From Antarctobacter albus (lineage in GTDB: Bacteria > Pseudomonadota > Alphaproteobacteria > Rhodobacterales > Rhodobacteraceae): 64,000 nucleotides of DNA. Made by a program: the position numbers and the translations under genes. The notes beneath the pieces are model-generated. The model was given only the letters and a program-made list of their open reading frames with translations, was not told the origin of the DNA and made no database searches. How positions within the stretch are numbered: position 1 is the first letter of the stretch; each line of letters starts with the position of its first letter. The stretch spans positions 1-64,000 of the forward strand of contig NZ_FMZI01000009.1 in the NCBI RefSeq assembly GCF_900101505.1. The letters run 5' to 3'. This document shows, in pieces, positions 24,420 to 25,398 of this stretch.

Positions 24420-24483
24420 CCCCCATGCCCCTTGACGCGGCACCGGGGCCGCCTGTAAGCCCCCGCAATCCGGATCTCCGGAT

Positions 24484-24512
24484 CAAGTCCCCGCAACCTT
24501 GCAAAAAACGGG
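24484..24512 (+). ncRNA. Candidate preQ1-I riboswitch upstream of yhhQ
   Basis: A compact H-type pseudoknot can be drawn. P1 is CAAG (24484-24487) with CTTG (24498-24501), around a 10-nt loop TCCCCGCAAC. Then come CAAAAAA and CGGG (24509-24512), which pairs with CCCG in the loop. The loop matches the Thermoanaerobacter tengcongensis preQ1-I loop (UCGCAGUAAC, recalled from memory) in length and at U1, C2, C4, G6 and the closing AAC. The last C is the ligand-pairing base in that structure. P2 would hide the GGG that serves as ribosome site eight bases before ATG 24521. That fits translational repression of a queuosine-precursor transporter. P1 is only 4 bp, the main weakness. Confidence 0.6.
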
Positions 24513-24520
24513 TCACATAC

Positions 24521-25162
24521 ATGACACGCGCTCATCTTCCCGGCATTCTTGCCATGGCGGCCATTGTCTTGGCCTCCAACATCCTCGTCCAGTTCCTGTT
24601 CGGCCAATGGCTGACCTGGGGCGCCTTCACCTATCCGCTGGCCTTCCTGGTCACCGACCTGATGAACCGCATCTACGGCCCGGGCCCCGCGCGGCAGGTG
24701 GTCTTTGTCGGCTTCATCGTCGGGGTCTTCTGCTCGCTCGTGGGCACCCAGATCCTGCTGCAGGGCGACGGTTTCACCTACCCGGCGGTGACGCTGCGGA
24801 TCGCCATCGCCTCGGGCCTGGCTTTCCTGACCGCCCAGATGATGGACGTGGCGATCTTTGACCGTCTGCGCGCGGGCAAATGGTGGCGCGCGCCGCTGGC
24901 CTCGACGCTGGTCGGCTCGACGCTGGACACGGCGATCTTCTTCACCATTGCCTTTTCTTCCACGCTGACCTGGATCGAACCGGCAAACGATGTCGCATGG
25001 GCCAACGAAGTGCTGCCGCTCCTGAGCGTCGGACCCGAGGTACCGCTTTGGGTCTCGCTGGCCGTGGCCGACTGGATGGTGAAACTCAGCCTCGCCCTCC
25101 TGGCCCTGGTCCCGTTCCGGATGATCGTTTCGCGGGCACTGCAGAATCAAAAATTGGCTTGA
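24521..25162 (+). CDS. yhhQ: Queuosine precursor transporter YhhQ (VUT family)
   Basis: A 213-residue inner-membrane protein with about six hydrophobic segments, of the YhhQ/DUF165 family that takes up preQ0/preQ1 for tRNA queuosine synthesis. Signatures are LASNILVQF at the N-terminus, TYPLAFLVTDLMNRIYGP and LRIAIASGLAFLTAQMMDVAIFDRLR. ATG 24521 is chosen because the conserved block begins there; the reading frame itself is open much further upstream. The 101-base gap before it contains the preQ1-I-like element. A structured segment and terminator follow the gene. Confidence 0.93.
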   Translation: MTRAHLPGILAMAAIVLASNILVQFLFGQWLTWGAFTYPLAFLVTDLMNRIYGPGPARQVVFVGFIVGVFCSLVGTQILLQGDGFTYPAVTLRIAIASGLAFLTAQMMDVAIFDRLRAGKWWRAPLASTLVGSTLDTAIFFTIAFSSTLTWIEPANDVAWANEVLPLLSVGPEVPLWVSLAVADWMVKLSLALLALVPFRMIVSRALQNQKLA

Positions 25163-25365
25163 GACGCAAAAAAGACTTTGTGGTTTGCCATGTGCGTGGC
25201 ACCATCATCTTGCGTTTTCAACAGCTGAAAGGAGGTGATCCAGTGTCGAGAGAAGCATTGGAGAGAGGTGTCGGAACAGTTCGGGAGAGCGCGCTCTAGG
25301 GCAGCCCCTGGGGCGATGATCCCCCGAATTGGCAGAGCCTAACCGGCCCCGCCTCCGTATTCTCG
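25163..25365 (+). other. Structured intergenic segment (possible small RNA or leader)
   Basis: Between yhhQ and arfB lies a segment with several RNA-like structures. ACGCAA (25164-25169) pairs with TTGCGT (25210-25215), enclosing GCCA (25187-25190) with TGGC (25197-25200). AGAGCGCGCTCT at 25286-25297 is a 12-base palindrome, and GGGG (25310-25313) can pair with CCCC (25321-25324). At 25227-25243 stands a 17-base stretch, GAAAGGAGGTGATCCAG, complementary to the usual 3' end of alphaproteobacterial 16S rRNA. A strong terminator follows. It may be a small RNA, or a leader carrying the short reading frame listed separately. Confidence 0.5.
25243..25299 (+). CDS. Possible 18-residue peptide behind an exceptionally strong Shine-Dalgarno
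   Basis: GTG at 25243, directly after GAAAGGAGGTGATCCA, opens a frame of 18 codons (MSREALERGVGTVRESAL) ending at TAG 25297-25299. The spacing from GGAGG to GTG is about seven bases, normal for initiation. The peptide is charged, without a membrane segment, and not recognised. It ends within the palindrome at 25286-25297. It could be translated in its own right, be a leader peptide, or be a by-product of an rRNA-pairing RNA. Confidence 0.4.
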   Translation: MSREALERGVGTVRESAL

Positions 25366-25398
25366 AAGGGCCGCTGATCTGGCGGCCCTTTTTATTTT
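25366..25398 (+). terminator. Rho-independent terminator before arfB
   Basis: A 9-bp stem, AAGGGCCGC (25366-25374) with GCGGCCCTT (25382-25390), and a 7-base loop are followed by TTTATTTT. It ends the yhhQ or intergenic transcript just 17 bases before arfB, so arfB must have its own promoter or depend on read-through. Confidence 0.85.

Follow-up and report, generated by a model that had tools for sequence, protein, structure and literature searches.

The short leader immediately ahead of the yhhQ gene of Antarctobacter albus very probably functions as a class I preQ1 riboswitch that represses yhhQ translation and that most closely resembles the type II element of Thermoanaerobacter tengcongensis (Tte). 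Within the analysed window, a stretch of 64,000 nucleotides, an H-type pseudoknot in which no preQ1-I position is missing occupies 24484-24512 directly 5' of yhhQ, its parts following each other in the order CAAG-UCCCCGCAAC-CUUG-CAAAAAA-CGGG. Judged from the sequence, membership in the preQ1-I class appears secure, and the original prediction of a candidate preQ1-I riboswitch controlling yhhQ translation gained support from the fold, its conservation and the pathway context. The class itself is known; the Rhodobacteraceae elements would add to it a clade that is undetected by Rfam and furnished with an additional 5' hairpin. The element and the gene comprise the following features.

24484..24487, forward strand: 5' strand of P1, CAAG, 100% paired in 67 distinct relatives
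24488..24497, forward strand: 10-nt pseudoknot loop UCCCCGCAAC, pocket bases kept in relatives
24490..24493, forward strand: 5' strand of P2, CCCG, an anti-Shine-Dalgarno sequence; CCG never changes in 10-nt loops, and the outer base covaries with the one that follows CGG
24498..24501, forward strand: 3' strand of P1, CUUG, with AC just before it as in preQ1-I type II and in the leaders of relatives
24502..24508, forward strand: A-rich L3, CAAAAAA, ending in A in 120 of 121 relatives
24509..24512, forward strand: 3' strand of P2, CGGG, the presumed Shine-Dalgarno sequence of yhhQ; CGG in 120 of 121 relatives
24521..25162, forward strand: yhhQ (QPTR, COG1738/PF02592), 213 aa, matched by TIGR00697 above its cut-off and by Vut_1

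All parts named in the original prediction, a P1 of 4 bp, a 10-nt loop, an A-rich tail and a P2 of CCCG with CGGG, are present in this order, and the proposed likeness of the loop to that of T. tengcongensis held, with the Tte-equivalent contact bases in place and kept in relatives. G24487, the base of the closing pair of P1, corresponds to Tte G5, while U24488, C24489, G24493 and C24497 correspond to Tte U6, C7, G11 and C15 (base roles from PMC11625349) and A24508 to Tte A29. The type II element of Tte has a G5-C16 closing pair, a C7-G11-C30 triple, a specificity base before C16, and A29 (PMC11625349, PMC10622847). The sequence and structural features of preQ1 class I were found: the loop of P1 pairs with the downstream tail as P2 (121 of 130 leaders), the specificity cytosine C24497 lies just 5' of the 3' strand of P1, a U opens L1 and an A lies in L3, the bases that in this class read the edge of the ligand, and a G-C floor pair closes P1. 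The class further has an A-rich L3, a P2 that either sequesters the ribosome site or leads into a terminator, and a position ahead of a gene for queuosine synthesis or uptake; the window element shows the A-rich L3, the buried ribosome site and the uptake gene, and no terminator was found at the riboswitch. Among the relatives with 10-nt loops (n=101), the U is kept in 101, the C of the second loop position in 92, the G in 101, the A ahead of the specificity base in 96 and the specificity C in 100, and the equivalent of C30 is retained in that the tail begins with CGG in 120 of 121 leaders. The AC ahead of the 3' strand of P1 is the mark of type II; it replaces the UC of type I, and the marks of type III, UU flanking the 5' strand of P1 and an AAGG tail, are absent from these leaders, which carry UC (92/101) and CGG tails.

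As proposed originally, CGGG would serve as the ribosome site of yhhQ. It is the only ribosome-site-like sequence ahead of the start codon, with 8 nt between it and the ATG at 24521, and the CGG of relatives mostly lies 8-10 nt upstream of the start codon. Against the riboswitch reading, CGGG is weak as a Shine-Dalgarno sequence, and P1 is absent from the plain fold of the window, which was computed by a method that does not cover pseudoknots.

The identity of the gene as a queuosine precursor importer was borne out by a TIGR00697 match of 95 bits (cut-off 51) and by PF02592 above its cut-off; YhhQ is thus predicted to be the queuosine precursor transporter, and its gene to be under control of the element. 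In gamma-proteobacteria, preQ1-I riboswitches are well known to precede yhhQ (PMC10622847), and two publications confirm that the link between preQ1-I and this gene family is known, as had been stated (PMC10622847, PMC11625349). The genome (99.99% complete) encodes Tgt, QueA and QueG, with neither QueC nor QueF above cut-off. This gene set is consistent with preQ1 salvage of the kind reported from other alphaproteobacteria, which lost the genes for preQ1 synthesis but kept tgt, queA and queG (PMC11570991). Import of preQ1 would therefore be needed, which suits a preQ1 sensor on the importer. In a family sample of 149 genomes, one per genus, YhhQ was detected in 143 and Tgt in 147. Of the six in which YhhQ had no match, three have QueF.

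The same fold with the same translational control could respond to another 7-deazaguanine, preQ0 or queuine, as natural ligand, which we regard as unlikely. The transport substrates of YhhQ/QPTR proteins do include preQ0 and preQ1, as well as queuine in some intracellular bacteria (PMC10622847; PMC11570991), and QueF is missing in most of the family (above cut-off in only 25 of 149 genomes), so that the precursor supply would be external in any case. However, all contact bases are identical to those of the preQ1-binding type II pocket. Moreover, preQ0 cannot be converted to preQ1 by the known route without QueF, and Tgt, QueA and QueG form the route that starts from preQ1; preQ0 would be of no use to such cells, which argues for preQ1 as the sensed molecule.

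The search with the Rfam preQ1 models that the original prediction had recommended was negative, yet it is not diagnostic, since it also misses the E. coli yhhQ riboswitch. No preQ1 family matched the window at the gathering threshold, where the element scores below the 39 bits of RF00522, and none matched in the whole genome, nor at E 10 in the leader or in the leaders of 20 relatives. The E. coli yhhQ leader gave no match in the same search at E 10 either, and among 14 control genomes only that of B. subtilis yielded a preQ1 match. As Rfam overlooks a riboswitch proven by crystallography, its negative result carries little weight and is no refutation; we judge the missing matches to be a sensitivity limit of the model. 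A covariance model (R1) was built from 82 gap-free relatives (alignment A2, 67 distinct rows), leaving out the window, whose L3 is one base longer. R1 recognized the window site at a level far above chance, with 31.3 bits (E 3.6e-8, 68.5 kb searched). Over the 5.26-Mb genome it gave one convincing match (E 2.7e-6; next best E 0.98), i.e. a single copy, and over 385 genomes of the class its strong matches were all from the same family and all upstream of yhhQ. Weak R1 matches in other alphaproteobacterial families, none of them near yhhQ, were taken as chance.

A DNA pattern scan over 85,000 species genomes returned at least 119 stretches. Among the matches listed, YhhQ was the next gene in 118 and the last one lay at a contig end; the distance from the pattern end to YhhQ was at most 12 nt in 117 of these and 22 nt in one putative case. 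All titles among the matches listed were from Rhodobacterales or from bins whose names go no further than a higher rank. In 30 yhhQ-family leaders from outside the Rhodobacteraceae, mostly of a different subfamily and many with uncertain start sites, the scan found no preQ1-I pattern. These surveys also bear on the idea that the element is another small pseudoknot riboswitch of the order, of the SAM/SAH or SAM-II type, or a member of an unnamed class. SAM/SAH riboswitches are short pseudoknots which bury the ribosome site and occur in Rhodobacterales. We nevertheless consider this idea highly improbable: no such family matched in Rfam at E 10, in a search that also misses true preQ1-I elements, and the context was exclusively yhhQ among the pattern matches listed, with no methionine-cycle gene.

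Conservation of the P1 and P2 pairing in relatives had been proposed as a check, and the pairing proved to be widespread. By explicit enumeration over the yhhQ leaders of 130 of the 143 loci, the pseudoknot was recovered in the 121 cases given above, about nine tenths of the family, and both P1 and the outer pair of P2 showed compensatory changes. The scan found none in nine leaders (L019, L025, L070, L079, L096, L109, L117, L118 and L119); L019 and L025 resemble decayed copies, and the other seven show no trace of one. The P1 types among the 121 were CAAG/CTTG (99), CATG/CATG (7), CGAG/CTTG (6) and GAAG/CTTC (5), with AAAG/CTTT, CAGG/CCTG and CGAG/CTCG in one leader each. In A2, which does not contain the window, P1 was 100% paired, two of its four pairs changed on both sides and the closing G-C pair was invariant. 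The covariation score of the whole structure was 0.105 as compared to 0.046 in shuffles, and none of 500 shuffles reached it, counts which are not probabilities because the rows of A2 share descent. Sliding the partner by one base reduced pairing in A2 from 95.5% to below 50%. Substitutions of several different types occurred at three pairs of P1 and one pair of P2, the outer one (T-A 62, C-G 11, A-T 1, versus 24 G-G). Two points count against the structure: three of the four P2 pairs never vary and lend no covariation support, and the outer position is G-G in about 20% of the leaders, so that this pair is not universal. Relatives with the loop TCGCCG (L006, L011, L028 and others) carry G at loop position 3 and usually the tail CGGGC (24 cases); the simple outer pair of P2 is then lost, which hints at another, noncanonical architecture for the top of P2, perhaps similar to that of Tte. 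That the block is conserved as a protein-binding site or as a context for translation initiation, rather than as an RNA fold that senses a ligand, is hardly credible: the block is indeed short, strongly conserved and extends over the ribosome site and the start region, but neither compensatory P1 and P2 changes across genera nor such an exact fit to the pocket pattern of preQ1-I is expected of a DNA or linear RNA site.

At one locus (L008:1464-1494) the aptamer is otherwise whole and the specificity C is replaced by G (TTCCCGCAAG). The genome of this locus (G047) has QueF. The base change is possibly a change of ligand or a sign of decay.

The caveat of a short P1 stands insofar as P1 has only 4 bp; it is softened by a second hairpin, P0, which adjoins P1 in most relatives. 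The original prediction was silent on this hairpin and on the promoter-like hexamers upstream of it.

24432..24461, forward strand: promoter-like hexamers TTGACG (24432-24437) and TAAGCC (24456-24461) separated by 18 nt, conserved in relatives
24468..24483, forward strand: P0 hairpin ATCCGG-ATCT-CCGGAT, adjoining P1 with zero unpaired bases between them, present in the predicted fold of the window

A stem of at least five pairs ending exactly at the first base of P1 was found in 91 of 121 leaders, versus about 3-12 for offsets of at least 5 nt. For covariation, the sole criterion for choosing leaders was the identity of the first four bases in the 5' arm; in the largest such group (n=21), the inner pairs 5-7 still covaried, being paired in 20, 20 and 21 leaders versus about 10 expected. 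In 12 leaders drawn from this same anchor-selected group, pairing was 100% and four of the seven pairs changed on both sides. When P0 adjoins, P1 is not extended in 87 of 91 leaders; a fifth Watson-Crick pair of P1 is commoner where no P0 adjoins (8/30 versus 4/91, Fisher p 0.0015, one among several comparisons and calculated with phylogeny ignored). The arrangement TTGnnn-16/18-TAnnnn lies 15-45 nt ahead of P1 in 119 of 121 leaders, with 3.9 expected by shuffling, and the second hexamer mostly ends 22-27 nt upstream of P1. A strict promoter consensus scan on the window alone did not call the hexamers. From their position, transcription would begin near the 5' arm of P0, at about 24467-24469. 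P0, stacked on the 4-bp P1, thus probably forms the 5' end of the mRNA, and such stacking would explain why P1 is short. In the sections consulted of a 2024 review, and in a term search of its text, no such helix is mentioned for class I (PMC11625349). More tentatively, the Rhodobacteraceae elements might form a distinct preQ1-I subtype in which P0 is integral, P0, P1, ligand and P2 build one continuous stack adapted to cells that live by salvage alone, and members such as L008 have shifted to another ligand.

We infer the ligand and the direction of switching as follows. With transcription starting at about 24468, the mRNA would present P0 and then the aptamer. At low preQ1, P1 and P2 would be weak and CGGG open to the ribosome; YhhQ would be made and preQ1 imported. 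When preQ1 is ample, the ligand would pair with C24497 and be held by U24488 and A24508 between P1 and P2. P2 (CCCG/CGGG) would then shut over the ribosome site and import would stop. As P0 adjoins P1 and probably stacks on it, a 4-bp AU-rich P1 would suffice.

Compared with the Tte riboswitch (class I type II, PDB 3q50), the Rhodobacteraceae elements share the 10-nt loop between the P1 strands with the equivalents of U6, C7, G11 and C15, the AC before the 3' strand of P1, the A-rich L3, the C30 that opens the 3' strand of P2 and the ribosome site within P2 (PMC11625349). Unlike in Tte, P1 has only 4 bp, is A-U rich and is adjoined by P0, P2 is mostly canonical CCG/CGG, L3 usually has 6 nt and the regulated gene is yhhQ. 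The E. coli yhhQ leader holds a preQ1 riboswitch of class I type III whose structure was solved by co-crystallography (PMC10622847; PDB 8fza). It shares with the Rhodobacteraceae elements the gene, the translational logic, the ribosome site in P2, a pyrimidine-rich loop, a specificity C after A and the failure of Rfam to detect it, but its loop starts with UU and is shorter, its P1 is longer and its site is AAGG, whereas the Rhodobacteraceae have UC, 10 nt and CGG(G/A). Rfam RF00522 (PreQ1) is intended for the same class, yet the model has no match to the short Rhodobacteraceae leaders at E 10. A literature search on preQ1 in Rhodobacter, Rhodobacteraceae and Alphaproteobacteria returned nothing specific to them; the 2014 subtype survey of McCown et al., reportedly the defining one for preQ1-I types, may list the clade.

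With the putative riboswitch, preQ1 control of the importer for queuosine precursors would reach a large family of bacteria, the majority of which appear to have lost preQ1 synthesis and to rely on uptake. As the current Rfam model misses the whole clade, surveys using Rfam undercount preQ1-I RNAs. The adjoining 5' hairpin suggests a way, open to experiment, in which a minimal aptamer whose P1 has only 4 bp could be stabilised.

Just downstream of yhhQ, at 25229-25299 of the window, lies a micro-ORF of 18 codons (VSREALERGVGTVRESAL, GTG start) preceded by AAAGGAGGTGATCC, which we take to be a perfect complement of the 3' tail of 16S rRNA. A AGGAGGTG site followed by an ORF of 18-20 codons occurs in 27 of 30 relatives, most of them with VSRxxLE(R/K)GVGT. 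After the micro-ORF, near 25364-25395, a terminator-like hairpin with a T run was recognized by eye.
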